Source: Iphinoe sp. HA4291-MV1 (GTDB lineage: Bacteria > Cyanobacteriota > Cyanobacteriia > Cyanobacteriales > Nostocaceae). Taken from it: a stretch of DNA of 35,851 nt. Below, piece after piece: positions 14,219 to 31,071 of this stretch. The translations under genes were made by a program, and so were the position numbers. How positions within the stretch are numbered: the stretch's first letter is position 1; the number at the start of each line of letters is the position of its first letter. The stretch spans positions 1 to 35,851 of the forward strand of contig JAHHHH010000077.1 in assembly GCA_019359415.1 (NCBI GenBank), written 5' to 3'. The notes beneath the pieces were generated by a model. That model was not told the DNA's origin. It saw only the letters and a program-made list of their open reading frames with translations, and ran no database searches.

Positions 14219-14617
14219 ATGCCCAAACGTTCTGACCAATCACTCATTCGCAGCAAAATGCTGCAAGCCCGATTCAGTCCCATTGAATATGAAATGATTC
14301 GCTCCAAAGCTATTGACACAGGTATGAGCTTGGGAGAATTAACCAGACGCAGTCTGTTATTACAACCAATCCCACCACCACCACTGCGACTGAGCAGAGT
14401 AACTATTGCTACATACCTAGAACTTTCCCGCATTGGCAACAACATTAACCAACTAGCCAAAGCCACCAACACAGCTATCAAAATGCAACTGTCACCACCA
14501 GCAAAACCAGAACTCTTACAGGAACTACTAGAACTGCTGCGACACTGCCAACGGGAAATAGCCAACACCATAATATCAGAATCAGACTCACAAACTGATG
14601 ATTGGCAACCAGACTAA
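14219..14617 (+). CDS. mobC: MobC-family relaxosome accessory protein
   Basis: This 132-aa protein has the MobC pattern: an N-terminal ribbon-helix-helix-like part (FSPIEYEMIRSKAIDTGMSL, then GELTRRSLL) and the family signature SRIGNNINQLAK near residue 80. MobC proteins bind oriT and help open DNA for the relaxase. Its 3' end overlaps the relaxase start by 20 bp, the usual mobC-mobA arrangement. The start ATG has no clear ribosome-binding site and follows TATAAATT closely, so the message may be almost leaderless. Confidence 0.9.
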   Translation: MPKRSDQSLIRSKMLQARFSPIEYEMIRSKAIDTGMSLGELTRRSLLLQPIPPPPLRLSRVTIATYLELSRIGNNINQLAKATNTAIKMQLSPPAKPELLQELLELLRHCQREIANTIISESDSQTDDWQPD

Positions 14618-16172
14618 AGGGCGAGGATTTCGCGGATTGCTAAATTATTTGGAATCTCAAAGAGATGCCAGACTCATTGGTGGTAACATGGGCGGTTACA
14701 ACGCTCGCGCACTTGCCAGGGAATTTCAAATCTCCCGTCAATTAAACCTGAAAGCTGACAGAGTCGTATACCATGCATCATTGTCACTACCACCTAACGA
14801 GCGATTGGACGACGAAACTTGGAACGAAATCGCCAACCGCTACCTTGAACAGATGGGATTCGACTGTAACCAGTATGTAGTTTACAGACACGCCGACACC
14901 TCACACGACCACATACATATCTGCGCCAGTCGCATTCGTTTGGACAATGGCAAGATAGTTCATGATAGCTGGGATTACAAGCGCAGCGAAACCATCATCC
15001 GTCAAATTGAACGGGATTACGGCTTACAACAAACTCAAAGCAGTTACGAGAAATTATCCCGTAACCCAAGTGTGGGACAACAAAGACGGCTGGAAAGAGA
15101 ACACTTTGAATACATTAATGGCTTACGCCCAACACCACAAGAGCGCCCCATCAAACAACAACTCCAAGAACTCATCGACCGCGCTACAACAGACCATCCA
15201 ACCATGCCCCAGTTAATTGAGCGACTGCAACTACTAGGTGTGGAAGTTCGCCACGGATTTACACGTAATGGTAAATCAAAAGGTATCAGCTATTCAATGG
15301 ATGGGCAAGCCTTTAGTGGTTCTCAGTTAGGAAGCGCGTATACCTTTCCCGGATTACAAAAACATAAGGGAGTTGACTACCAACCACAACGCGATTCACT
15401 TAGCATAGAGCAGTTGCTGTTGAACCCAGTTAAACTAACACAAATTAACCAGCAGTTTCTACTGAGTTCACAACCCGAAACAGTAAAAGCTTTTGATACT
15501 CAGTTACGTTCTGTCCAGAGTCATTCGGTAGGGCAGGGTATAGAGGATTGGGTGTTGGGTGTTGAGAAAGAACATTCTTCACTACACGACAGTGCAGTCA
15601 ATTCCTCAGCACAATGTGTTACGGTGTCGAGTGTTGGGAAAGAACATTCTTCACTACACCCAAAACCCGACGCATTGGGCTTTGACTCGGAGCCAGGCGA
15701 TATTACCCCACGGGTACACGACTCACTAGACGAATCAACCATAAAGCCTGGCTCATTTTCACAAGTCTTACCCCGTAACATCCCACACCCAGCCGAGGAA
15801 GTAATATCTTTGAATGCAACTCCATCTACTGAGGATGAAAACGAAAAAATCCAATTCGAGCGGACTCAAATTGTTGCACCCATTCTTGCTGGTATTCTAT
15901 CAGTAGCGAGAACAACGCGATTTGAGGGCAAAGAGCACACTGTTTATTGGTCAGAAAATCAACTGGTTTTGGTCAGAAACAGCGACCAAGCGCAGTTAAT
16001 TCGAGCGAGAAAAAAACAGTCGCAATGGGAGCCAGTTGAGCGTTCGAGTCTTACAGAAGAAATTGTACAGCACTTCCAGCAATTCATTCCAAAAATTGAA
16101 GAAGGACTACGCTACCTGCAACAAGAAAAAGAAAAGTCCAGAGAAAACCGTAGTCAAGGACTTTCTCTGTGA
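14598..16172 (+). CDS. mobA: relaxase (MOBP-like, MobA/VirD2-type)
   Basis: The 524-aa relaxase nicks one strand at oriT and stays covalently bound for transfer. The probable nucleophile is Tyr17 in GLLNYLES. The histidine motif is YRHADTSHDHIHI (H98, D100, H103, H105, H107), which coordinates the metal. The N-terminal 200 residues form the PF03432-type domain. A middle region (about 180-275) precedes a less conserved linker (about 300-415). The final 107 residues (about 418-524) form a domain that also exists as a separate protein at 10951-11490. Assignment to MOBP rather than MOBV rests on the gene pairing with MobC and the motif order. The linker contains an 11-residue repeat-like pair around VLGVEKEHSSLHDS and SVGKEHSSLHPK. 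Confidence 0.9.
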   Translation: MIGNQTKGRGFRGLLNYLESQRDARLIGGNMGGYNARALAREFQISRQLNLKADRVVYHASLSLPPNERLDDETWNEIANRYLEQMGFDCNQYVVYRHADTSHDHIHICASRIRLDNGKIVHDSWDYKRSETIIRQIERDYGLQQTQSSYEKLSRNPSVGQQRRLEREHFEYINGLRPTPQERPIKQQLQELIDRATTDHPTMPQLIERLQLLGVEVRHGFTRNGKSKGISYSMDGQAFSGSQLGSAYTFPGLQKHKGVDYQPQRDSLSIEQLLLNPVKLTQINQQFLLSSQPETVKAFDTQLRSVQSHSVGQGIEDWVLGVEKEHSSLHDSAVNSSAQCVTVSSVGKEHSSLHPKPDALGFDSEPGDITPRVHDSLDESTIKPGSFSQVLPRNIPHPAEEVISLNATPSTEDENEKIQFERTQIVAPILAGILSVARTTRFEGKEHTVYWSENQLVLVRNSDQAQLIRARKKQSQWEPVERSSLTEEIVQHFQQFIPKIEEGLRYLQQEKEKSRENRSQGLSL

Positions 16173-16453
16173 AATCAGCTGCACTTAAAAGTGTCAACAT
16201 ATCTTTTAACCCCACTACCACGAAAGCGACTGGGAGACGCGAGCTACACTGCCGTTCCGCTCGCTCGCACGGAGCGGTGTCTGCACTGCCCTATAATAAC
16301 TCTGGGTGAGCATCCCATTTGGCACTTTGGGGCAGGCAGACACTCCGCTTCCGCCGCTCCGTGCGCTCCTAGTCGCTCGTTCAGTTTGAACAGAACCAGT
16401 CTTTTTATTGGGGAAGAAATAAACAATTGATACCCCAAATTTTTACACTATAA
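16173..16453. other. 281-bp intergenic region after the relaxase
   Basis: No gene is supported; frames on either strand are shadows of GC-rich repeats. The stretch holds a long imperfect palindrome (16225-16377) and a short CACTTAAAAGTG palindrome just after the relaxase stop. Confidence 0.5.
16225..16377. repeat. long imperfect palindrome downstream of relaxase
   Basis: AGCGACT (16225-16231) pairs with AGTCGCT (16371-16377). Inside it GCGGTGTCTGC (ending 16284) pairs with GCAGACACTCCGC (from 16336), with interrupted pairing between. The core matches the hairpin at 10832-10906 downstream of the paralogous gene. It may end transcription of mobC-mobA. Confidence 0.6.
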
Positions 16454-17132
16454 GGGGTAGTGTTACGGAAGCTGTCACGAGGGGCAAAGTAGTACACACG
16501 TATTAAACTGGAAACTTCCCCATTACCCCGTTATATTCCTTCTGCGCTTCTCCTATTGACAACCGTGAGTACACTTCCAGCGACTGACGGGACGAATGTC
16601 CTGAGTAAGGTTGAATCAGTGCATCATCAATTCCTTGCTGCTTCAACCATGTCAGCAGAAAGTGGCGTAGCCTGTGAGGAGAGATAGCTCTAGAGAGTCC
16701 CGCCAAAGTTGCATACTTTTCTAGGATTTTCCTCACGCCTCGGTCACTATACTTGCGCTTCCACGACGACTCAAACAAGTAAGTCGCTTGTTTGCGTTGC
16801 ATCAAGTCTACGTGCATCGCCAAAATTTCCTTAAAACTAACAGGAAACGGAACAATTCTGTCTTTTCCCCCTTTCCCCTGGAGCCGGAACTTTACTCACT
16901 GCAATTGTGCAATTTTTAGGTTTTGAAATGGTAATTTAGACTGTTAAACATAGTAAGTGCAAACTCTCATAGTAAATTCGGTACTTTTTTAGGAAGTACC
17001 AAGGAAGCGTGAAAGCTGGATTTGAAAAGATCTGATTTCCGGTGAACTTCTACATTGTAAAATTTGAAAGCTAGTCCACGAAAGGCTTTTGGGCTACTTT
17101 GCCCCTCGTGACAGCTTCCGTAACACTACCCC
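16454..17132. mobile_element. miniature element with 39-bp perfect inverted repeats (Tn3-like ends)
   Basis: Positions 16454-16492 and 17094-17132 are perfect inverted copies of each other over 39 bp. They begin GGGGTAGTGTTACGGAAG at the outer ends. GGGG ends and this length are typical of the Tn3 family. The interior (about 600 bp) holds only a 5'-truncated tyrosine recombinase on the minus strand. The flanks share only TAA, not a clear 5-bp duplication. A related shorter element lies at 31072-31375. It is best read as a non-autonomous TIME/MITE-like derivative, possibly of a Tn3-type element that once carried a TnpI-like recombinase. Confidence 0.8.
16503..16895 (-). pseudogene. tyrosine recombinase, C-terminal fragment
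   Basis: The readable frame begins after a TGA at 16898 and encodes [15 protein letters not shown], then the recombinase signature [13 protein letters not shown] and a [10 protein letters not shown]...SLEVYSRL tail. The HxxR, H/W and Tyr boxes are therefore present. The N-terminal half, including the first catalytic Arg box, is missing. The longest ATG/TTG-started frame is only 16503-16823. It is distinct from the full-length recombinase at 29699-30667 and lies wholly inside the 16454-17132 element. It is a remnant and probably inactive. Confidence 0.8.
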
Positions 17133-17134
17133 TA

Positions 17135-17245
17135 ATACCAGAAATTTCCCAAATCGAAGACATCGAACAATTAAGGGCGATAAAAGAAGGAATAAAAACT
17201 GTCAGTACGATTGAGGAGCTGCGTCAAATCTATCAGCGCTTTTGA
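17135..17245 (+). pseudogene. 3' remnant of an unidentified gene
   Basis: Immediately right of the miniature element an open frame encodes about 36 residues, IPEISQIEDIEQLRAIKEG, then a TVSTIEELRQIYQRF end and TGA. It has no start codon and looks like the C-terminus of a larger protein cut by the element's insertion or by deletion. The left side of the element does not show a matching 5' part. The family is not recognised. Confidence 0.5.
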
Positions 17246-17276
17246 TGTTAGTGGAAGTTAAGTATATAGTGAAAGT

Positions 17277-17312
17277 TAATTCTACCCTATGCTGTCGTGA
17301 GGCGTTGAGCAC
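17277..17312 (+). repeat. degenerate CRISPR repeat upstream of the cas promoter (a)
   Basis: This 36-bp stretch shares the 3' part of the array repeat (GAGGCGTTGAGCAC, preceded by GCTGTCGT in place of GATGCCGC) and keeps a GTCGTGAGGC hairpin with a GNRA-type loop (GTGA). The 5' half is eroded. It is on the same strand as the array and lies 116 bp before the cas promoter -35 box. Confidence 0.75.
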
Positions 17313-17378
17313 TTTCACGATTTCAAGGTTTAACACCTTTGAGTGATGCAGGGCAGCTGGGATTAACATAACCCTGCC

Positions 17379-17414
17379 TGCTCTAAACCTTTGATGCCGT
17401 AAGGCGTTAAGCAC
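17379..17414 (+). repeat. degenerate CRISPR repeat upstream of the cas promoter (b)
   Basis: This copy is very close to the array repeat: CTAAACCTTTGATGCCGTAA is followed by GGCGTTAAGCAC. The hairpin has a GTAA loop and the terminal 8 bases are TTAAGCAC instead of TTGAGCAC. Its 'spacer' position (17415 onward) contains the cas promoter itself. Confidence 0.85.
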
Positions 17415-17427
17415 ATTAGTAAATAAA

Positions 17428-17456
17428 TTGACATACTGATATATTTATGTTATCTA
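17428..17456 (+). promoter_or_regulatory. probable cas operon promoter
   Basis: TTGACA (17428-17433), a 17-bp spacer and TATCTA (17451-17456) make a good sigma70-type promoter. It lies between degenerate repeats b and c. The untranslated leader to cas6 would be about 170 bases and contain repeat c. Confidence 0.6.
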
Positions 17457-17556
17457 TGAGTTGAGTCTAATGTTTCATGATTTAAAGGTTGATTTCAGAG
17501 TTTCACACTGAAATACGATTCAGTTCTGGCTCGAAGCACTACGTGCTACTAGTTCT

Positions 17557-17592
17557 TGCTTGCTACCTCGGATGCCGTAAGGTTTTGAACAT
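17557..17592 (+). repeat. degenerate CRISPR repeat in the cas6 leader (c)
   Basis: GCTACCTCGGATGCCGTAAG followed by GTTTTGAACAT resembles the array repeat. The stem is weakened (GG-TTTT side) but the GTAA loop is kept. It lies in the presumed 5' untranslated leader, 42 bp before the cas6 start, where Cas6 could bind or cut the mRNA. Confidence 0.75.
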
Positions 17593-17633: not shown

Positions 17634-18299
17634 GTGATTGCATCTGTAGGTTTTTCTGCATCTCAAGATGCAGGTAGTGAACTTGAGCCTTTCGTTGAAT
17701 TAAGCTTTCCAGTCCGAGGAAAATACCTTCCTGCGGATCATAATTACGCTCTTTTTGCAGCGTGCGTTCACATCATTCCAGAGATACGTCAGCAAACATC
17801 TCTCAGTATTTTGACAATCCCTGGTTTTGCTGACAAACAAGGGAAGATCCTTTTGACTGAGCAATCTTGCTTCAAGATTCGTGTACCAATTCCACAAATC
17901 TCTTTGATTTATCAATTGGCAGGGAAGTCTATTCGTGTAGGAATACATGAAATTCAAATTGGCATTCCACAAATATTTATGCTCCGACCAGCAAAGAAGC
18001 TGAAGTCTAGAATTGTTGTAATTAAAGGATATAGCGAACCGGAGCCTTTTTTAGTCGCAGCACAGCGCCAGCTTGATAATTTAGAAATTTCAGGTAAAGT
18101 TTCTATTCCAATAGATAAAGAAGGTGAACCAAGCCGTAAAACTCTCAAGGTCAAGCGGTATACCATTGTGGGTTTTACAACAGAAATTTCAGGCTTAAGT
18201 GACGATGATTCCCTAAAGTTGCAACAGTGGGGAATTGGTGGGAAAAGACACCTTGGTTGTGGATATTTCTTGCCTTATAAGGGAGGTAAGAATGTTTAA
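17634..18299 (+). CDS. cas6: CRISPR RNA endonuclease Cas6 (MYXAN type, Cmx6)
   Basis: Cas6 cuts the pre-crRNA within each repeat, leaving an 8-base 5' handle. The 221-aa protein has the RAMP-type layout and a glycine-rich C-terminal loop (GIGGKRHLGCGYFLP) typical of Cas6. The N-terminus (FVELSFPVRGKYLPADHNYA) fits the MYXAN (Cmx6) family. GTG 17634 is preferred as start because AGGAGG lies 9 bases before it; a TTG 24 bases upstream is the alternative. The gene opens the operon, and its stop overlaps the cas3 start by 8 bp. Confidence 0.85.
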   Translation: MIASVGFSASQDAGSELEPFVELSFPVRGKYLPADHNYALFAACVHIIPEIRQQTSLSILTIPGFADKQGKILLTEQSCFKIRVPIPQISLIYQLAGKSIRVGIHEIQIGIPQIFMLRPAKKLKSRIVVIKGYSEPEPFLVAAQRQLDNLEISGKVSIPIDKEGEPSRKTLKVKRYTIVGFTTEISGLSDDDSLKLQQWGIGGKRHLGCGYFLPYKGGKNV

Positions 18300-20715
18300 G
18301 GTGTTGTTAGCTAAGTCCTTATCACAGCAAGAGAAGGAAGAAGATAGAGCACGAGGAGCCGCTAAGTATACAGGACACATTAGCTTTGTAATGCAAGCAG
18401 CTGATGTTTTAGTAGATAAATTGGGATTATCTATCCTCCAACAATTGGGTATAGAGCACATCGATTTAGGCTACTTTGCAACCACAGTTCGATTAGGCGC
18501 GTACTTACATGATTGGGGTAAAGCAAATCAACATTTTCAGGAGATGGTTTACCTGAAAACTCTTGATCCTAAATCACCAGATCCAAAGCTCCGAGATTAT
18601 AGAAAGCAAATTTTGGCACTTTCAAAGAAGCATTCAGACAAACAAATGCTTCGTCATGAAGTCATTAGTGGTATTTTGGCGTTGCAAGTTCCCAGCTTTA
18701 GGAAATGGCTTGAACAGTGCCCCAATAGTAATTTAATGATTGCTGTCTGGGCAGCAATGGGGCATCATCTAAAAATAGGGATAAATAAAAATAATCAACC
18801 TGCGGAATTTATAGCCGAAATTCCTTCTAGTACTGGGGATAATTTGAAAATTTACACCCATCATTCAGACTTTCAAGCAGTATTGAAAATGGGTCATCAA
18901 GTTTTAGGATTACCTGAAAGCTTACCAGAAGCCCCTCAAGAAATTTGGTCTAAATCTCAATTACAAGAAGCCTTAATAAATCTGCGTGATGAATTTATTC
19001 AGTTTGAATCGCAACTGGACTGGGAACAGCAAAAGTTTATAGCTGCGGTAAAGGCAACGGTGATTGCAGCGGATTTAGCTGGTTCTGCATTACCTTTAGC
19101 TGAAGAAGACTTTAAGGTATGGATTGAACAAGTATTGACGCTACAACTCTCAAAAGAAGAGGTTCAGAAATTAGTTAATCAACGTTTACAAGGAAAAAAA
19201 TTACGTCGTTTTCAGAAGCAGATTGCCCAATCTGCTCGTCGAGTTACGCTAGTTGTAGCAGGTTGTGGAACGGGTAAAACAATTAGTGCTTATGCCTGGG
19301 GGGAAAAATGGGCTGTAGGACGTAGACTGTTTTTTTCCTACCCGACTACAGGCACAGCTTCACAGGGATATATTGACTATGCAGATGGTACAGAAATAGA
19401 AACGGCTTTAATGCATTCTCGTGCTGATTTGGATCGAGAACTGCTATTTTCTGGTGATTCTGATGATGCTGAGAGTATTGATGCTCGATTAATGGCTTTT
19501 CAAGCATGGCGCAAGAAACTAATTGTCTGTACGGTTGATTCTGTGTTGGGTTTGATTCAAAATAACCGCAAACCGCTTTACTCTTGGGCTGCGATCGCTC
19601 AATCAGCTTTTGTTTTTGATGAAGTCCATGCCTACGATGCACGTCTTTTCGGGGCGCTATTGAAATTTATCAAAGCGTTTCGTGGTGCGCCTATTCTCTT
19701 GATGAGTGCCAGCTTTACTCCTGAACAGTTACGAGCTATTCGTCAAGTACTTGCAGAACAAGGCGAAGAACTAGATGAACCCATCGAAGGACCAAAAGAG
19801 TTAGAGGAACTTAAACGCTACGAAATTAAATACATTCCTGAAGTAGCTGACTTGGATGAACTCAAGGAAATCTGGCAACCTGCAATAGAAGCTCTCAGAA
19901 ATAAGCAGAAAGTATTGTGGGTGACTAATTCTGTACCAACCTGTATCGAAATTTATCGCACAGCCAAAATTAAGCTTGCTGAACAATTACCAGAGTTAAG
20001 CATCGAACCGTTAATCTATCACAGTCGTTACCGTTACAAAGATAGGCTCAAAAAGCATAAAGCTGTAATTGAAGCCTTTAATAAAGATGAACCAGTCTTG
20101 GCTATCACTACGCAAGTTTGTGAAATGTCTCTAGATTTAAGTGCAGATTTATTGATATCTGCAATGGCTCCCGCAGCATCTTTAATTCAACGCTTGGGAA
20201 GACTGAACCGCAGGATGACTAGACAGGAAGAAGGAACAAGGCTGGCAATTATTTATCCTTGGGATAATAAGCGACCCTATGATACAGCAGAGCTTTCTAC
20301 AGGAGAGCAACTAATTCAAGAATTTTCTGGTAAAACAGGTATTTCTCAACGAGATTTAGCTGAAGTCGCTGCCCGTCTTCACTCAGAGAAAGTCGAGCAA
20401 GTTAAATCAAGTTGGTTAGAAGAAAACTGGTGTAATCGCCCAGATTTCCTGCGTGAAGGAGGATACACCATCACGGTGTTATTGGGTGAAGATGAAGAAA
20501 AAGCGATATGGGATATTGCTGAACAGCGCAGACAAGAATTACTTAAACAAGGCAAGAATGAATCCTTAATGAAATTATTCAAACAAGAAGCACAAGCTTG
20601 GTCAGTACCTATCCAAATTGAACCAGACTATCGGGAATGGCAACGTAGGGGATTCTATCCCATCACTCCAAAAGGCAGAATTCGCTACAGCAAAGAGGTA
20701 GGGGCAGAACAGTGA
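18292..20715 (+). CDS. cas3: CRISPR helicase-nuclease Cas3 (HD + DEVH)
   Basis: The 807-aa protein combines the HD nuclease and superfamily-2 helicase that unwind and degrade DNA once Cascade has bound. The HD part shows H29 (TGHIS) and H73-D74 (YLHDWGKAN). The helicase has Walker A AGCGTGKT (323-330), DEVH (443-446), a SAS motif (MSASF, 471-475) and motif VI QRLGRLNRR (about 655). All key residues are present, so it looks active. ATG 18292 has GGGAGG upstream and is preferred over earlier in-frame starts inside cas6. It overlaps cas8 (GTGA) by 4 bp. Confidence 0.93.
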   Translation: MFKVLLAKSLSQQEKEEDRARGAAKYTGHISFVMQAADVLVDKLGLSILQQLGIEHIDLGYFATTVRLGAYLHDWGKANQHFQEMVYLKTLDPKSPDPKLRDYRKQILALSKKHSDKQMLRHEVISGILALQVPSFRKWLEQCPNSNLMIAVWAAMGHHLKIGINKNNQPAEFIAEIPSSTGDNLKIYTHHSDFQAVLKMGHQVLGLPESLPEAPQEIWSKSQLQEALINLRDEFIQFESQLDWEQQKFIAAVKATVIAADLAGSALPLAEEDFKVWIEQVLTLQLSKEEVQKLVNQRLQGKKLRRFQKQIAQSARRVTLVVAGCGTGKTISAYAWGEKWAVGRRLFFSYPTTGTASQGYIDYADGTEIETALMHSRADLDRELLFSGDSDDAESIDARLMAFQAWRKKLIVCTVDSVLGLIQNNRKPLYSWAAIAQSAFVFDEVHAYDARLFGALLKFIKAFRGAPILLMSASFTPEQLRAIRQVLAEQGEELDEPIEGPKELEELKRYEIKYIPEVADLDELKEIWQPAIEALRNKQKVLWVTNSVPTCIEIYRTAKIKLAEQLPELSIEPLIYHSRYRYKDRLKKHKAVIEAFNKDEPVLAITTQVCEMSLDLSADLLISAMAPAASLIQRLGRLNRRMTRQEEGTRLAIIYPWDNKRPYDTAELSTGEQLIQEFSGKTGISQRDLAEVAARLHSEKVEQVKSSWLEENWCNRPDFLREGGYTITVLLGEDEEKAIWDIAEQRRQELLKQGKNESLMKLFKQEAQAWSVPIQIEPDYREWQRRGFYPITPKGRIRYSKEVGAEQ

Positions 20716-22244
20716 AATTAGAGTTTGATTTAGGTAATCCTAGCTTTACTTTGTTGCATTGTGCTGGTTTAGCTGGGTTATGGATGACTTTAAAGCAGTT
20801 AGAAATAGAAAAAGTGGCTCCTCCAGAGGGTTTAAATTGGCAGCTTTCCAACCGAAAAGTCATCTTAAATTGGGAAAGAAGCGATAAAACAGTTTTGGAA
20901 TGGCTATTAAAAGAATCATTCCAAATAAATGATGGACTAATTGCCCTTCGTGGTTTAGATTCGCAAACTATGCGTAAGGATGCTCAGGTGATTGTACACC
21001 AGGGAATTCTTGGTACTTTTTTACAACATACCAGCACCCATAAATCGATTGGGACAAAAACCGAATCTCTATCATTAGGTGAGGGGGAAAAAGAGATTCA
21101 GGTTACATATAAAGCCTTACAAAGCTATGCTTATCAAGATTTTACCAGTAACCTTTGTGATAAAAATGGACAATTGCTGACAAAATCTATTAGCGTTGCT
21201 GGATGGTTAAATCCTGGTGCGGTGGTACGTCATGTTGCTTTTAGTTCTGATACAAGTTTTGAAGAACTTCCAGAAGATGCATTTGTTCTATTATTTGCTC
21301 CCGTCGCTTGTTATTACTACATTCTCCGCTCCAAGTTGCGAGATAAACGTGCTCAGTATGCATTGGTAGTTCCAGAAATCACAGATTTAGAAAAATATGC
21401 TCAATACCGCCAAAATCAACACTTGAGATATGCCACTTATAAAGATTTCCATGCATCAGGTTTAGGCGATGCAGGGTTGCGATTTTTAACATTGAAGGAA
21501 ACTGTAAACATTACTCAAACTTTTGGTATACCGCGTTGTCAAGTTTTGACATTGGGAACTGTCGCATGGGCGACTCAGCAAAAAACTCGGACAGATATGT
21601 ATGTGGTAGAAGCCAGTGACGAGGTTTGTCACAACTATCAGGTTTGTGACGATTGGTTGAAAGACAAAGCCATTGAAGGTAAAGAAGGTGGATTTGTTGC
21701 TACTAACTTTGCAAAAGAACTAATAGCTGAAAACTTGGCAAGAAATCAACCTTGGTATTTTGGGATTTCAGAAAAAGTAAACAGTAACGAATTATTCAAA
21801 AAGTTAGCTTACGAAAGGAGAGAACTATATCAAGTGATTCAGAAAATTCAATCAGATGAACGCGAAAGACTATTTATTCAGGCTTGTCATGAGGCAATTA
21901 AATTTACATACGGACAAATTTCTGAACAAGCGAAGAAACGAGGAGAAGTGCCAAATTTCGACCGAGAAACAGTACGCATCAGAACAGGATTAGGTCGGTG
22001 TAAAAATGCTGAAACATTTCGAGAATTTATTACTGATTTTTGGTCAAGAGCAGGAAGAATTCCCACTTTGCAGGAGCATTGGCAAGATTTGATGGAGTTT
22101 GTTATGCGAGATAGTCATTGGAAAAAGTCAAGAGACTTAGCTTTACTAGCATTAGCTAGCTATAAAGGCAAAGGAGTTTTTGATACAGATGATACTGAGC
22201 GCGAGAATATAGATGGAAACATTGAAATTGATATTGGCTTATAA
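20712..22244 (+). CDS. cas8: Cascade large subunit Cas8 (MYXAN, Cas8a1/Csx13-like)
   Basis: This 510-aa protein sits where the large subunit is expected, between cas3 and cas7, with the gene order of the Myxococcus dev locus (devT-devR-devS). It begins MKLEFDLGNPSFTLLHCAGL, a segment typical of MYXAN Cas8 proteins (the Cas8a1/Cmx1/Csx13 family). The large subunit recognises the PAM and recruits Cas3. No nuclease motif is expected or seen. Its GTG start overlaps the cas3 stop. A 150-bp gap with an inverted repeat (22301-22357) separates it from cas7. Confidence 0.82.
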   Translation: MKLEFDLGNPSFTLLHCAGLAGLWMTLKQLEIEKVAPPEGLNWQLSNRKVILNWERSDKTVLEWLLKESFQINDGLIALRGLDSQTMRKDAQVIVHQGILGTFLQHTSTHKSIGTKTESLSLGEGEKEIQVTYKALQSYAYQDFTSNLCDKNGQLLTKSISVAGWLNPGAVVRHVAFSSDTSFEELPEDAFVLLFAPVACYYYILRSKLRDKRAQYALVVPEITDLEKYAQYRQNQHLRYATYKDFHASGLGDAGLRFLTLKETVNITQTFGIPRCQVLTLGTVAWATQQKTRTDMYVVEASDEVCHNYQVCDDWLKDKAIEGKEGGFVATNFAKELIAENLARNQPWYFGISEKVNSNELFKKLAYERRELYQVIQKIQSDERERLFIQACHEAIKFTYGQISEQAKKRGEVPNFDRETVRIRTGLGRCKNAETFREFITDFWSRAGRIPTLQEHWQDLMEFVMRDSHWKKSRDLALLALASYKGKGVFDTDDTERENIDGNIEIDIGL

Positions 22245-22357: not shown

Positions 22358-22420
22358 ATTTCTATCTGCTATCTCTGGTGTAAAAAAAAGAAAATTGTGA
22401 TTTTTGAGGAGATTTCAAAA

Positions 22421-23341
22421 GTGTCATTTCATTTATTTGGAAATGTTTTAACTGGGTATGGTACTGCTGCTAACAATCGCGGAGAAAATGAAGGTAATAT
22501 AACTACCCTGCAAAAAATTCTTTGGAAGGGAGATGTACATACAACAGTTTCATCTGAGGCAATTCGTTGGGCATTGCGCTACTACTGGCAGACTGCTGGC
22601 AACGGTTACCAAGTCAATCGTCGTTGGGACGATGATATCAACGATAATGTTTGGCAGAATGAAAGTTTTGATGACATCAATTTTATTGATGATGATGTAT
22701 TAGGTTTCATGCGTGCAGAGGGTGCAAAAGTTGAAGCTTCCGATGAACCTAAACAAAAAGGGAAAAAAGCACCCAAAGGTACAACAACCGCTAAAAGAGG
22801 AGTTTTAGAAGTAACTCGTGCTGTTTCTACAACAGCTTTTAGTGGGGATTTAACCTTCAATGCTGCTAGTGGGAAAAAAGGACGGACTTCACTTTATGGA
22901 ACTGAAGTTCATGCAACTCGCTATCAATATGGATTTGCATTAACTCCAGAACGCTTGAAAGATAAATCTCGCATAATTGCAGTTTTGGATGGTTTGAGTT
23001 CTTTGGGAGAAGTAGCAGGTAACCACTCTCGTTTTCTTTACGACTTTTCTCCTGAAAGTTTAGTTTTACGATGGACGCATGACTTCGCTTCCCGAATTCT
23101 TTACTGCTTTGAAGAGGAAGAGGGAGAAATATCAATTGGGGAATTGATAAGAAAAGTCAAAAATCAAGATATTGAACCGCAGGAGTTGTGGATAGCCGGT
23201 GCAATTACAGAATCTGAGGAAGTGGAAGAATTAGAAGAATTGGGAGTGAATATTTTTCCAGGAATTAAATTAGCTGTACAAAGCATGAAACAAGTCATCG
23301 CGAGAGATTTGCAGCTACCTCAACTGGAGTTAATTCGATGA
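22421..23341 (+). CDS. cas7: Cascade backbone Cas7 (DevR family)
   Basis: Cas7 forms the helical backbone that coats the crRNA spacer. The protein (306 aa) begins SFHLFGNVLTGYGTAANNRG and contains the DevR/Cst2-type GEVAGNHSRFLYDFSPESLV motif near residue 210. A lysine-rich insert (KQKGKKAPKGTTTAKRG) lies around residue 113. GTG 22421, with GAGGAG 9 bases upstream, is preferred over the in-frame GTG 22397. Its stop overlaps the cas5 ATG (ATGA). Confidence 0.88.
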   Translation: MSFHLFGNVLTGYGTAANNRGENEGNITTLQKILWKGDVHTTVSSEAIRWALRYYWQTAGNGYQVNRRWDDDINDNVWQNESFDDINFIDDDVLGFMRAEGAKVEASDEPKQKGKKAPKGTTTAKRGVLEVTRAVSTTAFSGDLTFNAASGKKGRTSLYGTEVHATRYQYGFALTPERLKDKSRIIAVLDGLSSLGEVAGNHSRFLYDFSPESLVLRWTHDFASRILYCFEEEEGEISIGELIRKVKNQDIEPQELWIAGAITESEEVEELEELGVNIFPGIKLAVQSMKQVIARDLQLPQLELIR

Positions 23342-23988
23342 CGACAACAACTGAGAAAATGTTGGCTTTGGAAGTAGAAGTTCCCATAGCTAGCTTTCGT
23401 CAATCTCGCGCAAGGGAATATGCTGAAACTTATCCAGTACCTCCACCATCTACAGTTTATGGGATGTTATTGTCTATAGTGGGGGAGATCGACAGATATA
23501 AACATTGTGGAATTAAGTTAGCGATCGCTCTCATTTCACAACCACAAAAATCAACTGTTATCCGCACATTTCGCCGCTTTAAGAAGAAAGATATCCATGA
23601 CCCTAGCAACGCCAGACCAGATTATCAGGAACTATTGACTGATGTTAGATTTATTACTTGGGTTGATTCTGGGGAAGATAATTCGCAGCCAACGCTAGCA
23701 GAACGCTTACAGATGGCATTTGCCAACCCTGCTTCTATCAATCGTTTTGGCGGTCTTTGTTTAGGAGAAAGCCGAGATTTGGTTAATGCTGTTACCTTGT
23801 TGCCAAAAAACTATCAAGGTCAATCGTTGCAATGGCTGGTACGGGATGAAAATGGGTTGTTGACTTTACCCTACTGGGTGGATCACGTTGGCTCAAAGGG
23901 TACTCGTTGGCAGAGATACTTTATACTTGAACCTTCTGATCTGTATTATCCTCCTGAGTCTGCCTGGACAGTAATTCAGACAACTTAG
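23338..23988 (+). CDS. cas5: Cascade subunit Cas5 (DevS/Cmx5)
   Basis: Cas5 caps the 5' handle end of the crRNA. The 216-aa protein shows the RAMP N-terminus with FRQSRAREYAETYPVPPPST and VYGMLLSIVGE, a signature of Cas5. A glycine-rich INRFGGLCLGESRDLV motif lies near residue 138. It is the DevS/Cmx5 form. It overlaps cas7 by 4 bp. About 160 bp of repeat-containing sequence follows before cas4-cas1. Confidence 0.88.
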   Translation: MTTTTEKMLALEVEVPIASFRQSRAREYAETYPVPPPSTVYGMLLSIVGEIDRYKHCGIKLAIALISQPQKSTVIRTFRRFKKKDIHDPSNARPDYQELLTDVRFITWVDSGEDNSQPTLAERLQMAFANPASINRFGGLCLGESRDLVNAVTLLPKNYQGQSLQWLVRDENGLLTLPYWVDHVGSKGTRWQRYFILEPSDLYYPPESAWTVIQTT

Positions 23989-23989
23989 A

Positions 23990-24119
23990 AAAAGTTTACC
24001 TCAGATGCCGTTAGGCGTTGAGCACACTTGAAGCGGTGGGTATGCCTAAACCTTAGAAATTGCAAGGCGTTGAATATTTTAATTAATTTCTACCTCTGAT
24101 GTCGTAAGGCGTTTAACCG
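23990..24119 (+). repeat. three degenerate CRISPR repeats between cas5 and cas4-cas1
   Basis: Copies at about 23990-24025 (GATGCCGTTAGGCG, TTGAGCAC), 24042-24077 (AAACCTTAGAAATTGCAAGG, then CGTTGAATAT) and 24084-24119 (ACCTCTGATGTCGTAAGGCG, then TTTAACCG) resemble the array repeat, in the same orientation. The stretches between them are only 16 and 6 bp, too short for normal spacers. The first keeps the whole handle; the others are eroded. Confidence 0.75.
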
Positions 24120-24147
24120 TTTATATCTAACCTTACACACATCAAAA

Positions 24148-25812
24148 ATGCAAACTTTAGATTGCTTAGAAATTACTAAAGCCGACACCATCCGGGTTTC
24201 TGCGCTCCACGCCCTCGCCTACTGTCCCCGCCTTTTCTATCTTGAAGAAGTTGAAGAACTCTACACCCAAGATGCCGCAGTATTTGCCGGACGCAGACTG
24301 CACACCGAACTCGAAAAACAGGAAGACGAGGAATGGGAAGAACTCTTCCTCGAAAGCGAAGAATTAGGGTTACGCGGTCGGCTTGATGCCCTCCGCACCC
24401 GTGATGGGCAAAAAATCCCCTACGAACATAAACGCGGTCGCTGTCACCGAGATGGGAATAATCAACCTCAAGCATGGGAGAGTGACAAGCTGCAAATCCT
24501 CGCTTATGCCTACCTCTTAGAATCAGCATTGGGAATCACGGTTAAAGAAGGTCGCATCCGCTACCATGCTGACAACGTCCTCGTTCACGTACCACTGGAT
24601 AATTCAGGACGTGCGGCTGTTCAAGAAGCAATTCAACAAGCACGAGTACTCAGACAATCTACCCACCGACCACCAGTAACTGACAACGAGCGATTATGCG
24701 CCCGCTGTTCTCTTGCTCCTGTGTGTTTGCCAGAAGAAGCTCGACTCGCCCACGACCGGGAGTGGCAACCAATTCGGCTGTTTCCGGAAGATGACGAACG
24801 GCAAATTATTCACGTTTTGGAACCAGGAACATCTGTTGGCAGAACAGGAGAACAAATCAAAATCGCGCGTCGGAATCAACCTGTGGAAACCGTTCCTGCT
24901 CGTCAGGTAGGGCAACTGGTTTTGCACAGTTTTTCACAAATCTCCACCCAAGCACTGCACTTTTGTGCCGACCAAGAAATCGGGTTACATTTTCTTTCTG
25001 GCGGCGGACGCTACATCGGTAGTTTTGACACCCGACATGGTAGTATTCAACGCCGAATTCGTCAATATGCTGCTCTTAGCAATCCTGATACTTGTTTGGA
25101 GTTAGCGCGTAAATTGGTGACCTGTCGGGGTCAAGGACAGCGGAAGTTTTTGATGCGGGGAACTAGAGGCAAAGCTGAAGTGCCAGAGACTTTGAACAAA
25201 GCCATTAAACAGATGCAAATCCTCCTTAAAGAAGTTCCCAAAGCACAATCTTTGGCATCTTTGTTAGGACTGGAAGGTAATTTAGCTGGATTGTACTTTA
25301 GTGCCTTGCCTTGTTTAATTTCTCAAGGAGTTGCTAAGGAACTTTGCTTTAATAGTCGCAATCGTCGTCCTCCCAAAGATAGATTTAATGCCTTGTTAGG
25401 CTTTGGCTACGCTTTGCTAATCAAAGATGTGATGAATTCTATCTTAACCGTGGGATTGGAACCAGCTTTAGGATTCTACCACCAACCTCGCTCTCAAGCT
25501 GCACCATTAGCACTGGATTTAATGGAAGTTTTCCGAGTTCCGTTAGTCGATATGCCAATAATGGCATCAATTAATCGTGCTCAGTGGGATGTGCAAGCTG
25601 ATTTTGATATCCGAGGAGAACAAGTCTGGTTGAGCGAAGCTGGTAAGCGCAAGTTTGTTGATTTGTATGAACGGCGCAAACAAGAAAGTTGGAAACACCC
25701 TGTTACTGGTTATTCCTTAACTTATCGCCGCCTGCTGGAATTGGAAGTTCGGCTTTTAGAAAAAGAGTGGTCTGGTGAAGGTGGTTTGTTTGCTCAATTG
25801 ATATTGCGGTGA
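24148..25812 (+). CDS. cas4-cas1: Cas4-Cas1 fusion, spacer-acquisition nuclease/integrase
   Basis: This 554-aa fusion contains Cas4 (about 1-200) and Cas1 (about 215-554). Cas4 keeps C26 (AYCPRLFYL), H52, D80 (RGRLDAL), E93-x-K95 (PYEHKRG), Q116 (QILAYAY) and C184, C187, C193 for an Fe-S cluster. Cas1 keeps E376 (LLGLEGNLAG), H445 (GFYHQPRS), D457 and E460, the metal-binding residues of the integrase. Cas4 trims prespacers and selects the PAM; Cas1 with Cas2 inserts them. Such fusions occur in MYXAN type I-B and some I-G systems; the neighbouring genes decide for I-B. ATG 24148 follows a short repeat-rich gap, so it may have its own promoter. Confidence 0.92.
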   Translation: MQTLDCLEITKADTIRVSALHALAYCPRLFYLEEVEELYTQDAAVFAGRRLHTELEKQEDEEWEELFLESEELGLRGRLDALRTRDGQKIPYEHKRGRCHRDGNNQPQAWESDKLQILAYAYLLESALGITVKEGRIRYHADNVLVHVPLDNSGRAAVQEAIQQARVLRQSTHRPPVTDNERLCARCSLAPVCLPEEARLAHDREWQPIRLFPEDDERQIIHVLEPGTSVGRTGEQIKIARRNQPVETVPARQVGQLVLHSFSQISTQALHFCADQEIGLHFLSGGGRYIGSFDTRHGSIQRRIRQYAALSNPDTCLELARKLVTCRGQGQRKFLMRGTRGKAEVPETLNKAIKQMQILLKEVPKAQSLASLLGLEGNLAGLYFSALPCLISQGVAKELCFNSRNRRPPKDRFNALLGFGYALLIKDVMNSILTVGLEPALGFYHQPRSQAAPLALDLMEVFRVPLVDMPIMASINRAQWDVQADFDIRGEQVWLSEAGKRKFVDLYERRKQESWKHPVTGYSLTYRRLLELEVRLLEKEWSGEGGLFAQLILR

Positions 25813-25821
25813 GGTGTGGCG

Positions 25822-26115
25822 ATGGCTTCAGCTCAAAACTGCTACTTGATTTGCTACGACATTCGTGACAACAAGCGCTGGCGCAAGGCTTACAAGTTGT
25901 TGTCAGGATACGGCGAAAGAATTCAATACTCGATATTTCGCTGTTGGCTAAACCAGCGCACACGCGAAAAATTGCGCTGGGAACTGGAGAAGATACTTGC
26001 TGCTGAGGATAGTATTCTTTTGCTTCGTTTGAGTAACCGTTGCTTGGAAGATATCCACAAGTACAATCGACCAGGTGCATGGCGTCCAACAGAGGAACCA
26101 TATCGAATTGTTTGA
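25822..26115 (+). CDS. cas2: spacer-acquisition protein Cas2
   Basis: The 97-aa protein has the Cas2 fold signature: LICYDIRDNKRWRKAYKLL, then YGERIQYSIFRC, with Asp at the end of strand 1. Its C-terminus is typical (RLSNRC...). ATG 25822 is preferred; a GTG two codons earlier (25816) is the alternative. It follows cas4-cas1 by 9 bp and ends 248 bp before the first repeat. Confidence 0.93.
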   Translation: MASAQNCYLICYDIRDNKRWRKAYKLLSGYGERIQYSIFRCWLNQRTREKLRWELEKILAAEDSILLLRLSNRCLEDIHKYNRPGAWRPTEEPYRIV

Positions 26116-26363
26116 CGCAAGCATCTTTTAGTGTGAAGTCAAATAAAAGCGAATCAAAGCGCAAAAGCTTGACTATAATTAGCGTTAGAGAGTTTTACAC
26201 TTACTCAAGGTGCTTGCAATTTTCCAAATACCTATGAGAAGCCAAAATTGGCTCTATGGCTGTCTCCATTTGGTTGAAGTTGAGAGTTATTATTATCGCC
26301 TTTTAAAGGGTAGTTGTAGAATTGCTCCAGAACTTTGATTGGACAAGGCTTTCAGGACTCGCT
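26116..26363 (+). promoter_or_regulatory. CRISPR leader
   Basis: This 248-bp AT-rich stretch between cas2 and the first repeat fits the leader. The repeats nearest to it are identical, and variant repeats lie at the far end, which fixes the array orientation as plus strand. A promoter within it is expected but no box pair stands out. Confidence 0.7.
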
Positions 26364-27550
26364 ATGAGCTAACCTTTGATGCCGCGAGGCGTTGAGCACA
26401 ATTAGAAGCTAAAGCTTTCTATGTTCCTCCAAATATGAGCTAACCTTTGATGCCGCGAGGCGTTGAGCACACTCTCTTGTGTTAGTTGGAAATCAGAAGA
26501 TAAATATGAGCTAACCTTTGATGCCGCGAGGCGTTGAGCACACCTTGAATCAAGTCTGCCTGCCATTGTATCTTTAATGAGCTAACCTTTGATGCCGCGA
26601 GGCGTTGAGCACTCGACATAGTAGTTCGATTCTTGGCGAGATTGTAAAGATGAGCTAACCTTTGATGCCGCGAGGCGTTGAGCACTCTCTCGGCATTAGA
26701 GTTGCACAGCATACAAGAGCGGATGAGCTAACCTTTGATGCCGCGAGGCGTTGAGCACAAGAAAAGAGCGAGGAAACAGACGCTGAGGTGAAGCATGAGC
26801 TAACCTTTGATGCCGCGAGGCGTTGAGCACGCAATGCGTCATAAAAAAAGGTTAAAAGGTAACAAATGAGCTAACCTTTGATGCCGCGAGGCGTTGAGCA
26901 CTTGGTAACAATAAATATTTAAATCCGGTTTCTGTAAATGAGCTAACCTTTGATGCCGCGAGGCGTTGAGCACGTTGCAAATCTTGTAGATTTTTTGAGG
27001 AAAATGTTATGAGCTAACCTTTGATGCCGCGAGGCGTTGAGCACTTATACGAAATAGAAAAAACCAAACAGATTTGTAGAAAATGAGCTAACCTTTGATG
27101 CCGCGAGGCGTTGAGCACTTACCACCAAATACTGGGTCAGCACATTTAATACGTATGAGCTAACCTTTGATGCCGCGAGGCGTTGAGCACGAACTATTCG
27201 ACATAGAACACTATACCGCCCCTTCTTATGAGCTAACCTTTGATGCCGCGAGGCGTTGAGCACGTTACAGTCTGGTTTATCCCATTAAATTGGGAATCAT
27301 GAGCTAACCTTTGATGTCGTAAGGCGTTGAGCACAGGTGAATTGAAGAAGTCACCCTCGGCATTTGGGAAATGAGCTAACCTTTGATGTCGCAAGGCGTT
27401 GAGCACCGCTAATTATTTACGACTTCTTCAGGCTTATAACTACATGAGCTAACCTTTGATGTCGCAAGGCGTTGAGCACGACAAGCGGTACATAAAAGAA
27501 CCCAAGCTAGCGGCGTGAGCTAACCTTTGATGCCGTAAGGCGTTGAGCAC
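26364..27550 (+). CRISPR. CRISPR array, 17 repeats of 36 bp and 16 spacers
   Basis: The repeat begins ATGAGCTAACCTTTGATGCC and ends GAGGCGTTGAGCAC. Spacers are 35-38 bp. Repeats 1-13 are identical, while 14-17 (27299-27550) vary: GTCGTAAGG, GTCGCAAGG (twice), and the last GTGAGC...GCCGTAAGG. All variants keep a GCC/GTC...GGC stem with GNRA-type loops (GCGA, GTAA, GCAA). Cas6 cleavage after the stem would leave the 8-base handle TTGAGCAC. I see no spacer matching another part of the window. Confidence 0.97.
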
Positions 27551-27621: not shown

Positions 27622-28545
27622 TCAGTCAGACTCAGCAATAAGAGCTTCCAACTCTGCCAACAAAGATTCTAGCTTCTCCCGCTTCTGTGGATTTTCCCAC
27701 ACCGAGGACTTCTGAGCCTTCTTGTAAGTAGCTGACAGACGGCTTTGCAGTGTTGGGAGTTCTGTTGCTGGTTGTTTCCTTTTTACCTGTTCTTTAATTT
27801 GCGACAGAGACAAAGGTAGTTCAATGGCAGCTTCTAAGAGTTCAGTCCTGTCTTCTGCTGATTCCAGCTTGGCTATTTCCTTAGCTTTGGTGTACTCAAT
27901 ACGTCCAGCACGCAAAGCTTCAAGGATATCAGTTGGCAATTTTAACAGCGGCAGTCGTGTGCGGACAAATGATTGCCAGTTCATCCGCCCCAATTCAGCA
28001 AACACTTTTTCTACTGTTGATGCCTCAGAATTACCCGAAACGTTTCGGGTAATTTTCCCTTTCGCTGAATTTTCCATTTTGTAAAGTAAGGAGGACACTT
28101 CTGCTGCCTCACATCCCAATCGCAGTGCCAAAAGTTGCAATATTCCTTCAGTTTCTTCTACTGGGTTTAAGTCCTCCCTTTGCAGATTTTCAACCAGGGC
28201 ATACTGTACCGCCTGCTCATCAGACATCTCGCGCACTGTTACAGGCACCTCAGTTAAACCCGCTGATTGTGCTGCCTTATATCTCCGCTCTCCTGCAACT
28301 AACGAATACTTGTCCCCCACAAGTCTGACCAAAAGAGGTTGGAGAATGCCATTTTGCTTTACCGACTCCACCAAAGATTGCATAGCTTGGGGGTCAAAAT
28401 AACGCCGAGGTTGAGTAGAAGGGAGGACAATCTTATCTAGTGGCACAGTATCAGGAGCCGTCTGCTCATCTTCTTTAAACAGAGCGACGTTTTTGAGCTT
28501 GCTTCTATCAGCAGGTGGTTGTTGGCTAACTCGTCTGGGACTCAT
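27622..28545 (-). CDS. parB: plasmid partition protein ParB
   Basis: The 307-aa ParB binds parS and spreads to form the partition complex. It shows the N-terminal VPLDKIVLPSTQPRRYFDPQ arginine-patch segment, box I GERRYKA (near residue 86) and box II ENLQREDLNPVEETEG (about 117-133), then a DNA-binding helical region. The stretch ITRNVSGNS near residue 170 is a variable linker encoded by a perfect 26-bp palindrome. ATG 28545 directly abuts the parA stop, with GGAGG upstream. Confidence 0.93.
   Translation of the reverse strand: MSPRRVSQQPPADRSKLKNVALFKEDEQTAPDTVPLDKIVLPSTQPRRYFDPQAMQSLVESVKQNGILQPLLVRLVGDKYSLVAGERRYKAAQSAGLTEVPVTVREMSDEQAVQYALVENLQREDLNPVEETEGILQLLALRLGCEAAEVSSLLYKMENSAKGKITRNVSGNSEASTVEKVFAELGRMNWQSFVRTRLPLLKLPTDILEALRAGRIEYTKAKEIAKLESAEDRTELLEAAIELPLSLSQIKEQVKRKQPATELPTLQSRLSATYKKAQKSSVWENPQKREKLESLLAELEALIAESD
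28029..28054. promoter_or_regulatory. candidate parS: 26-bp perfect palindrome inside parB
   Basis: AATTACCCGAAAC followed by its exact inverse complement gives 26 bp without a mismatch. It resembles in style, not in sequence, the canonical parS palindrome that centres on a CG step with GAAAC/GTTTC arms. It falls inside the coding sequence of parB. Confidence 0.6.
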
Positions 28546-29307
28546 TTATATTTCCTCCATCGCTTGTGCTATCTCGTCAAAGATGCGGAGAATAGCTAGA
28601 TTCTTATTAGGGCATAATGCTAAAGGTTTACCGTACTCGGCAGCTTCAGCCACTGTTGTAGCGCGAGGCAACGGGGTAAATATTTTTCCTATGGGAGACA
28701 GTTGCTCGCGTATTGATTCTAGAGTTCTTTGGTCTAGAGAATTATTAGCAGAGTACATCGTTGGGAAAAAACCTGCTATTTTGAGAGAGCGGTTGAGCTT
28801 GCGTTGCACTCGTGCTACCGTCTTAAGCAACGAGTCTGTTCCCTTCAACGCCTTGAACTGACACTGGATGGGAACTAGCACATGAGTAGAAGCAACCAGA
28901 CTAATTTGGCTAAGAATACCTAAACTGGGTGGACAGTCAATCAAAATAAAATCGTAATTATCTAATAGGGGAGTTAGCACTTCTTTCAGTCGAAATTCTC
29001 TTAGTTCAGCAAATATAAGTTCTTGTTCGGCGTTGGCTAGCAAAATGTTAGCTGGAACCAAGTCCATACCGTGTACATCCCGGTGTATTGGCACGGGTTC
29101 ATCTGATGATGATACTAAGGCATCGTAAACAGTTTTTTCTAAATCAGCAGGTTCCAACCCCATGAACGTCGTTAAGGAGGCTTGAGGGTCAATGTCTACC
29201 AAGAGAACACGGTGATGACGCACAGATAAATGATAGCCAAGGTTTTGGGCGGTTGTCGTCTTGGCGACACCCCCTGCCTGATTGAAAAGTGAGATTACCT
29301 TGGTCAT
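28546..29307 (-). CDS. parA: plasmid partition ATPase ParA
   Basis: The 253-aa ParA drives plasmid segregation together with ParB. The deviant Walker A is NQAGGVAKTTTA (residues 9-20), with A15 in the position usually held by G. Motif A' is DIDPQAS (near residue 38) and Walker B is FILIDCPPS (about 117-125). Having no N-terminal HTH, it is a type Ib/soj-like form. It is transcribed first, immediately followed by parB. The ATPase of the mob operon (12488-13276) is a distant paralogue with a different job. Confidence 0.93.
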   Translation of the reverse strand: MTKVISLFNQAGGVAKTTTAQNLGYHLSVRHHRVLLVDIDPQASLTTFMGLEPADLEKTVYDALVSSSDEPVPIHRDVHGMDLVPANILLANAEQELIFAELREFRLKEVLTPLLDNYDFILIDCPPSLGILSQISLVASTHVLVPIQCQFKALKGTDSLLKTVARVQRKLNRSLKIAGFFPTMYSANNSLDQRTLESIREQLSPIGKIFTPLPRATTVAEAAEYGKPLALCPNKNLAILRIFDEIAQAMEEI

Positions 29308-30667: not shown

Positions 30668-31071
30668 AAAAATTAGGTGACGATAATAAGTCTTTCCGTA
30701 ACCTTATACACCAAAAAAGGGGTCAAAACAAGATAAATTTGCTTGCGCTTTTATTATTGTGGTACAAAACGATTGGAGAAGGAGCCAGCCTTATATTGCG
30801 TTAGTCGTAGCGATGGAAATGAGATCTCAGCTCACTACGAGGTATCCCTGATATTTCTAAGCACAAAAATGGCTACGTAAAAAACCATACTGCTTAGTAA
30901 CCGATATTTCCCAGCACCAGAGAACGCGATAGCACTCCTAAGAACGAACGTTTTCGTTCCAGAGCGTTTATTGCGCTCCGGAACGAATCGCTTTTTTGCG
31001 CTGTCTGAGGTTAGACAGTGATTTGATATCACTGCTATCACAGTGCGCTTAGTCGGGCAATCTCCCAAGGA
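30668..31071. other. 404-bp intergenic region with a cluster of hairpins
   Basis: No credible gene is seen (a frame at 30835-31068 has neither ribosome-binding site nor recognisable product). CGTTCCAGAGCG pairs with CGCTCCGGAACG (30955-30985), followed 11 bases later by TTTTTT, so it may be a terminator on the plus strand. Two more hairpins follow: CTGTCT/AGACAG (31001-31018) and CAGTGAT/ATCACTG (31016-31034). Confidence 0.6.
30955..30985 (+). terminator. strong hairpin, possible plus-strand terminator
   Basis: CGTTCC and GAGCG arms pair with CGCTC and GGAACG around a 7-base loop with one A/C mismatch in the stem. A run of six T lies at 30992-30997. The distance to the T-run is larger than in a classic terminator, so the call is tentative. 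Confidence 0.4.

Follow-up and report, generated by a model that had tools for sequence, protein, structure and literature searches.

The window, i.e. the whole stretch of 35,851 nt that was analysed, carries a cas operon in which cas6, cas3, cas8a1, cas7, cas5, cas4-cas1 and cas2 follow one another on the plus strand, with the CRISPR array behind them (Table 1). NCBIfam labels the parts of the operon type I-MYXAN, and the cmx6-type cas6, the cas8a1, the devR-type cas7, the devS-type cas5 and the cas4-cas1 fusion are those of the I-B 'Myxan' (Cas8a1/Cmx1) systems. Type I-MYXAN is described as the lineage to which the dev operon of Myxococcus belongs (PMC11237760), and a relative of the system in Synechocystis PCC 6714 is classed as type I-B, 'subdivided as Myxan' (PMC11096372). 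A relaxase gene upstream and genes for ParB and ParA next to the array (window positions 14598-16172 and 27622-29307) lie on the same contig, which suggests that the CRISPR-Cas system is plasmid-borne. A search for Cas8 on plasmids returned five records, all of them cyanobacterial, and no relatives of Cas7 were found among viral contigs.

Table 1. Features of the cas locus in the window. Matches of the repeat copies are given against the consensus of the array repeat.
Feature	Position	Strand	Remarks
Possible -10 box of the crRNA-like RNA, TATAGT	17265-17270	+	By eye; the start would fall approximately at copy 1
Repeat copy 1 (psiR1)	17276-17312	+	27/37; same place in relatives
Putative 5' handle	17305-17312	+	Last 8 nt of copy 1, TTGAGCAC
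Candidate guide, target-matching part	17313-17330	+	Seed = positions 1-5 and 7-11
Conserved hairpin	17350-17384	+	Behind the guide, extending into the start of copy 2; z -2.1
Repeat copy 2 (psiR2)	17378-17414	+	26/37; would close the crRNA-like unit
cas promoter	17428-17456	+	TTGACA (17428-17433), 17 nt, TATCTA (17451-17456)
Putative PAM of the target, ATG	17470-17472	+	
Candidate target (protospacer)	17473-17490	+	Approximately +10 from the inferred transcription start
Repeat copy 3	17556-17592	+	21/37; in the cas6 leader
cas6/cmx6	17634-18299	+	TIGR02807 8.8e-67; GTG start chosen, open frame from TTG 17610
cas3	18235-20715	+	TIGR01587 6.1e-52
cas8a1/cmx1 (DevT type)	20712-22244	+	TIGR03485 1.4e-96
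cas7 (DevR type)	22397-23341	+	TIGR02585 8.8e-36
cas5 (DevS type)	23338-23988	+	TIGR02586 2.3e-46
Repeat copy 4	23989-24025	+	28/37; between cas5 and cas4-cas1
Repeat copy 5	24041-24077	+	24/37; between cas5 and cas4-cas1
Repeat copy 6	24083-24119	+	21/37; between cas5 and cas4-cas1
Repeat arm and anti-repeat	24097-24144	+	Arm 24097-24109, anti-repeat 24131-24144; can pair just 5' of the cas4-cas1 ATG (24148)
cas4-cas1 fusion	24148-25812	+	TIGR03983 3.8e-177
cas2	25816-26115	+	TIGR01573 1.1e-15
CRISPR array	26363-27550	+	17 repeats of 37 nt; spacers 34-37 nt

Six degenerate copies of the repeat lie outside the array; their register was set by the repeat of the array (37 nt, 17 copies starting at 26363). 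All six have the same orientation as the array and the operon, as a first-pass annotation of this DNA had stated for its own copies. The best match per shuffle of the whole window was 19-23/37 (20 shuffles), therefore copies 1 and 2 exceed the chance level and copy 3 does not by sequence alone. In other words, of the three copies that had been claimed around the cas promoter two are borne out by their sequence and the third is not, though it recurs in relatives. A weaker fourth copy, suspected at 17230-17265, was rejected: its match of 17/37 is below the range of the shuffles. The Rfam model CRISPR-DR33 gave 38.1 bits for copy 2 (E 3e-5; gathering score 39) and 31.2 bits for 23993-24025 (copy 4), and copies 1 and 3 were absent from its list at E <= 0.1.

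A search for the copies upstream of cas6 in relatives had been proposed in the first-pass annotation, and copies 1 and 2 indeed recur there. In several relatives the loop of copy 1 is enlarged while the closing stem and the handle are kept (by eye). A repeat pattern within the last 148 nt 5' of cas6 was seen in 19/28 loci; since this pattern is copy 2 in L055, L062 and L088, copy 3 recurs in 16/28 loci. The sequence of copy 3 is poorly conserved, and the pairing of the cas6 leaders with their own repeat (-5.48 kcal/mol) was the same as with shuffled sequence (-5.41 kcal/mol; 13 loci), so the cas6 leader holds no anti-repeat to copy 3. Copy 3, which lies outside the guide, may be a Cas6 site in this leader.

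The sequence directly behind the handle of copy 1 matches the target in 16/18 positions. The seed is matched in 10/10 positions and only positions 6 and 12 are mismatched; type I Cascade leaves every sixth guide base unpaired. The target starts 16 bp 3' of the -10 box of the cas promoter, with the ATG directly in front of it, and lies approximately 160 nt from the guide. The seed rule (1-5 and 7-11) has been demonstrated by mutation for CreA, where changes at 6 and 12 were silent and each of the other ten positions was needed (PMC8501985). The first-pass annotation had placed the cas promoter in the 'spacer' after copy 2 and had proposed comparing the spacer-like stretches with the promoter region. 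The promoter is present at that place, and the comparison gave the match of the copy 1 stretch; the stretch after copy 2, however, is the promoter itself, and the working guide would be the sequence after copy 1. A full ATG and seed match within the window was seen for the copy 1 guide only, out of 23 guides (6 orphan, 17 array), and for the 'spacers' after copies 2-6 the window has no ATG-flanked match of 9 or more seed positions out of 10. Matches of 9/10 in the window occurred once each for copy 1 (a second site), spacer 8 and spacer 11. The 7.36-Mb genome of the host contains two sites with ATG and seed, i.e. the target and a site on contig C48, which lies inside an ORF that in our own reading resembles a phage tail gene and was taken as a chance match.

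The relatives comprise 13 related loci from genomes and further loci found with Cas6 or Cas8 models; the sample consists of the cas6 matches obtained at operon length, which are a part of all cas6 matches. After the removal of 11 duplicates and of L126, which has no cas6, the analysis covered 99 loci, one of which is that of the window. The gene order of the window and a cas8 identity above 50% define a group of 29 loci, with L043 and L089 added by hand. Pairs were searched as sequences behind a TTGA-type handle that recur with at least 9/10 seed positions at most 1 kb 5' of cas6, with any PAM. A handle-anchored, ATG-flanked guide-target pair was found in 27/29 loci, the window included, or in 24/26 if L073-L075, which were refetched after a pair had been seen, are excluded. 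The two loci that lack a counted pair are L046, where the seed match is only 8/10, and L094, which holds too little upstream DNA. With the guide placed directly behind the handle (offset 0) there were 31 ATG-flanked seed pairs, and each of 16 other offsets (-8 to +8) gave 0-3. A TTGAC-box lies 5' of the target in most of 28 loci (by eye).

The trinucleotide before the target was ATG in 31 of the 41 handle-anchored seed pairs of the 29-locus group, any other trinucleotide occurring at most twice. For Synechocystis PCC 6714, whose Cascade is of the Myxan I-B kind, the reported PAM is AYG, with ATG the best of those tested (PMC11096372), and ATG is given as the most frequent PAM of the myxobacterial B-type (PMC11237760). 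The target thus appears to be flanked by the PAM of the system, the PAM being taken from these papers on the family as phage searches with the system's own spacers gave no credible protospacer. Against phages the array spacers gave weak matches to phages of other hosts (E 0.05 or worse), among them one to a Synechococcus phage (E 0.2), or none, and against plasmids the matches were other CRISPR arrays.

The position-wise match was tabulated for 28 loci; where a guide has two targets, the target further from cas6 was taken. Positions 1-5 match in 27, 28, 28, 28 and 26 loci and positions 7-11 in 28, 28, 23, 27 and 27 loci, i.e. 270/280 for the whole seed, a figure that is partly selected because the pairs were chosen by a seed of at least 9/10. 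This selection does not affect positions 6, 12 and 13-18, the PAM count, the control with other offsets or the test in which loci exchange their targets. Positions 6, 12 and 18 match in 5/28, 8/28 and 7/28 loci, positions 13-17 in 23, 25, 17, 20 and 17 loci (102/140), and from position 19 on the match is at chance level. There are 21 kinds of seed among the 28 loci. When targets were swapped between loci the mean seed total was 161.6 (sd 7.8) and the maximum in 20000 swaps was 205, as compared to the observed 270. Co-change was followed in 14 non-overlapping, phylogenetically independent locus pairs on a tree of Cas6 and Cas3. Here, 37 seed changes were concordant in guide and target, 5 affected only the guide and 3 only the target, and positions 6, 12 and 18 together showed only 1 concordant change. 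Guide and target have thus been kept together in evolution.

The pairs were also counted in all the loci with a looser handle, a PAM of ATG or ACG and twelve control offsets. The 29-locus group again gave 27/29 (controls 0-3), and the loci with a nearby cas3 and no recognisable cas8a1 gave 8/12 (controls 0-3); L060 and L077 among these twelve have Cmx8, and L080 is doubtful. Among cas3-less loci the count was 1/39 with controls of 0-5, therefore no pair is shown for them. The distant cas8a1 loci gave 1/14 (L148; controls 0-2) and the remaining loci 0/5 (controls 0); L050 (Trichodesmium), which is outside the 29-locus group, has no pair. As the cas3-less relatives show pairs no more often than the controls, the CreR-type control discussed below seems to go with the cas3 nuclease.

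Four loci (L055, L062, L088 and L093) have one guide with two targets. In L055, L062 and L088 the second target overlaps the start of cas6, the start codon being the ATG PAM (in frame by BLAST placement), and in L055 and L062 the first target is inside the enlarged loop of copy 1 itself. The targets of L093 are 667 and 103 nt 5' of cas6, and the more distant one (L093:1360-1380) precedes small ORFs.

Counted from copy 1 to copy 2, the unit has a length of 102 nt, compared to 71-74 nt in the array, and its doubled 65-nt 'spacer' consists of the guide and the conserved hairpin. Since this 'spacer' is longer than those of the array, a standard mature crRNA is not assured. The unit length is kept: the core of copy 2 is at +80 from the guide start in 19/28 loci and at +80 to +83 in 24/28, and L081 has a short unit (+52). 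The hairpin folds with a mean z of -2.17 over 28 loci (L085 is positive), and its arms pair better within a locus than when swapped (0/20000 permutations reach this; 27 loci, L081 left out). We infer that the hairpin protects the guide or ends it at the normal length.

The cas4-cas1 leader contains a separate element in which a repeat arm can pair with an anti-repeat. The leader of the window has a minimum free energy of -11.0 kcal/mol, and of -4.8 kcal/mol if the anti-repeat is kept free. A stem of this kind, with compensating changes and with the anti-repeat ending a few bases 5' of the start codon, was seen in 18/26 cas4-cas1 leaders of the group (in L049 the start was moved by hand). The arm is missing in 6/26 leaders, among them that of L048, where cas4-cas1 is outside the operon, and 2 of the 20 leaders with the arm do not pair (L044 and L085). 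The single-locus folding z is weak (-1.4 in the window, +1.0 to -3.8 over the 26 loci), and the case for the stem is made by swaps and shuffles of the arms: the locus' own arms sum to -251.4 kcal/mol, swaps between loci to -216.0 (sd 10.4; 14/20000 as low) and shuffled 3' arms to -92.7 (sd 9.1). Among the loci outside the group whose ATG start could be placed, L078, L084 and L148 show the stem, and it was not seen in the other five (L060, L099, L102, L107 and L108). The long stem cannot form together with the short hairpin of Cas6 type, and the leader stem may be a switch by which Cas6 controls the adaptation genes.

Copies 1 and 2 very probably constitute a mini-CRISPR with two repeats, whose product is a CreR-type RNA by which loaded Cascade would repress its own promoter. 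This reading is built on the sequences and their placement, the position-wise match, the PAM and the co-change observed across the relatives; its molecular steps, from transcription, Cas6 processing and Cascade loading and binding to repression and release, are modelled on the work on CreA and CreR. The mini-array would be transcribed towards cas6, Cas6 would cleave at both repeats, and Cascade (Cas8a1-Cas7-Cas5-Cas6) would load the product, which consists of the 8-nt handle followed by the guide; the crRNA-like RNA would begin with TTGAGCACUUUCACGAUUU. Guide positions 1-5, 7-11 and 13-18 would pair with the target beside the ATG and just 3' of the cas promoter. Pairing over so short a stretch would not be expected to license Cas3, therefore bound Cascade would block the promoter or transcription in its earliest steps. 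Cascade would thereby limit its own supply, and repression of the operon would end once Cascade is drawn off by an inhibitor or by crRNAs of the array. The first-pass annotation had suggested that Cascade could regulate its own operon through the copies in the manner of CreA and CreR, and the comparative evidence favours this suggestion, with the corrections given above. A point that counts against the model is the report that the nuclease activity of Cas6 is dispensable for dev autoregulation in M. xanthus (PMC8616872).

It could be argued that the copies are functionless, decaying leftovers of an older array 5' of cas6. Arrays are in fact found directly upstream in L040, L044, L082 and L128, and copy 1 of L040 is the last repeat of such an array, so the mini-array element may have originated in this way. 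Nevertheless, leftovers would not keep a guide whose changes are mirrored in a target 160 nt distant, nor would they keep the hairpin or a unit length of +80 to +83 in 24/28 loci, and we consider this explanation extremely unlikely. Near-identical direct repeats that flank a promoter could also be two operators of an ordinary DNA-binding repressor, and plain direct repeats (CCATAACTTTGCCGC type), which have neither handle nor PAM and are perhaps protein-repressor operators, do precede cas6 in the cas3-less loci L140, L142, L144 and L146. But the 21 seeds in 28 loci, the fall of the match to chance at positions 6, 12 and 18, the exact start behind the repeat handle and the presence of ATG before the target only make the probability of this reading negligible. 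A CreTA-like module, in which the guide mainly restrains a toxin and loss of Cascade is punished, had been mentioned in the first-pass annotation as a further option. Small genes do lie between the targeted promoter and cas6 in L060 (a 68-aa ORF, hicB and hicA), L081 (103 aa) and L148 (200 aa), and L093 has its second target upstream, but the ORFs of L081 and L148 have no family match over the cut-off. In the window no ORF of at least 80 aa is listed on the plus strand between 17490 and 17610 (this covers protein genes and not a toxin RNA), and the ORF list gives no toxin gene (creT) under the targeted promoter, which leads straight to cas6. With no gene between promoter and cas6 the toxin-guarding option is not needed in the window, and we regard it as very unlikely.

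Regulation by Cas6 alone, through copy 3 in the cas6 leader and copies 4-6, is rather unlikely as well, though less so than these three, and it may coexist with CreR. It would fit the copies in both leaders and the leader stem that excludes the short Cas6 hairpin (18/26); on the other hand it leaves the co-change of guide and target unexplained, and copy 3 is poorly conserved and has no anti-repeat. The mini-CRISPR reading can also be extended to a two-level control, a tentative proposal that we hold to be unlikely, somewhat more so than regulation by Cas6 alone. CreR-guided Cascade would set the transcription of the operon, and a Cas6-sensing switch would set the translation of the adaptation genes: the repeat arm would be either in the short Cas6 hairpin or on the anti-repeat that covers the cas4-cas1 start, and spare Cas6 would open spacer acquisition. 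Under the same proposal a hidden CreR would also explain the autoregulation of DevTRS in Myxococcus.

CreR RNAs, reportedly described by Liu et al. 2023 (Cell Host Microbe), are said to be cas-regulating RNAs from mini-CRISPRs. They are treated in two reviews (PMC12737573, PMC12948488). The present element has in common with them a crRNA-like unit that lies near the cas genes but apart from the array and carries degenerate copies of the local system's repeat, a spacer analogue that partly matches the cas promoter region (27/29 loci) and a PAM beside the target, and by analogy Cascade autorepression is expected. It differs in its lineage, the I-B 'Myxan' (cas8a1/dev) systems of cyanobacteria, in the doubled 'spacer' with its conserved hairpin, and in the two targets per guide of four loci. 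CreA of CreTA likewise has two degenerate repeats around a spacer analogue, the first of them degenerate, and the same seed (PMC8501985, PMC9458426), whereas here the target is the cas promoter and the window has no toxin gene. DevTRS of Myxococcus xanthus has homologous Cas8a1, Cas7 and Cas5 and a negative autoregulation of the cas operon, which we infer for the present system (PMC8616872, PMC11237760). Unlike here, no guide is known there, and the nuclease activities of Cas6 and Cas3 are reported not to be needed (PMC8616872). In type II-A a long tracrRNA represses cas9 (Workman et al. 2021, via PMC8616872); there, too, a truncated guide makes the effector repress its own promoter, but the effector is a single protein and the guide comes from the tracrRNA, not from a mini-array.

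What is new here are the I-B 'Myxan' lineage, the doubled 65-nt 'spacer' and the separate repeat/anti-repeat stem in the cas4-cas1 leader, with the reservation that Liu et al. 2023 may already list such loci. A cyanobacterial or Myxan CreR was not met in the available parts of the CreR reviews and the CreTA papers, and 'autoregul' and 'MYXAN' are absent from a review of 2025 on the type I systems of cyanobacteria. With the present loci, self-control of the CreR type would reach the dev-type I-B lineage, and their natural co-variation shows that selection has kept a short seed with the six-base rhythm of Cascade across many cyanobacterial genera. They also provide a candidate mechanism for the long-open question of DevTRS self-repression in Myxococcus. 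A candidate of the same kind is present in Synechocystis PCC 6714, for which a Cascade structure and the PAM have been published, so the model is testable in a harmless and well-studied strain. This locus (L060) is on plasmid pSYLB; the candidate CreR guide and target (9/10 seed) are followed by the 68-aa ORF, hicB-hicA and cas6 (L060:674-1579).

Other repeated sequences were also seen in the window. At the two ends of each of the segments 16453-17132 and 31071-31375 a 37-39-bp sequence (AGGGGTAGTGTTACGGAAGCTG type) occurs as an inverted pair, and the former segment, just 5' of the mini-array, contains a fragment of a tyrosine recombinase gene (16503-16823, minus strand). A tandem repeat of 5 x 33 bp, 99% alike, is at 34514-34686.
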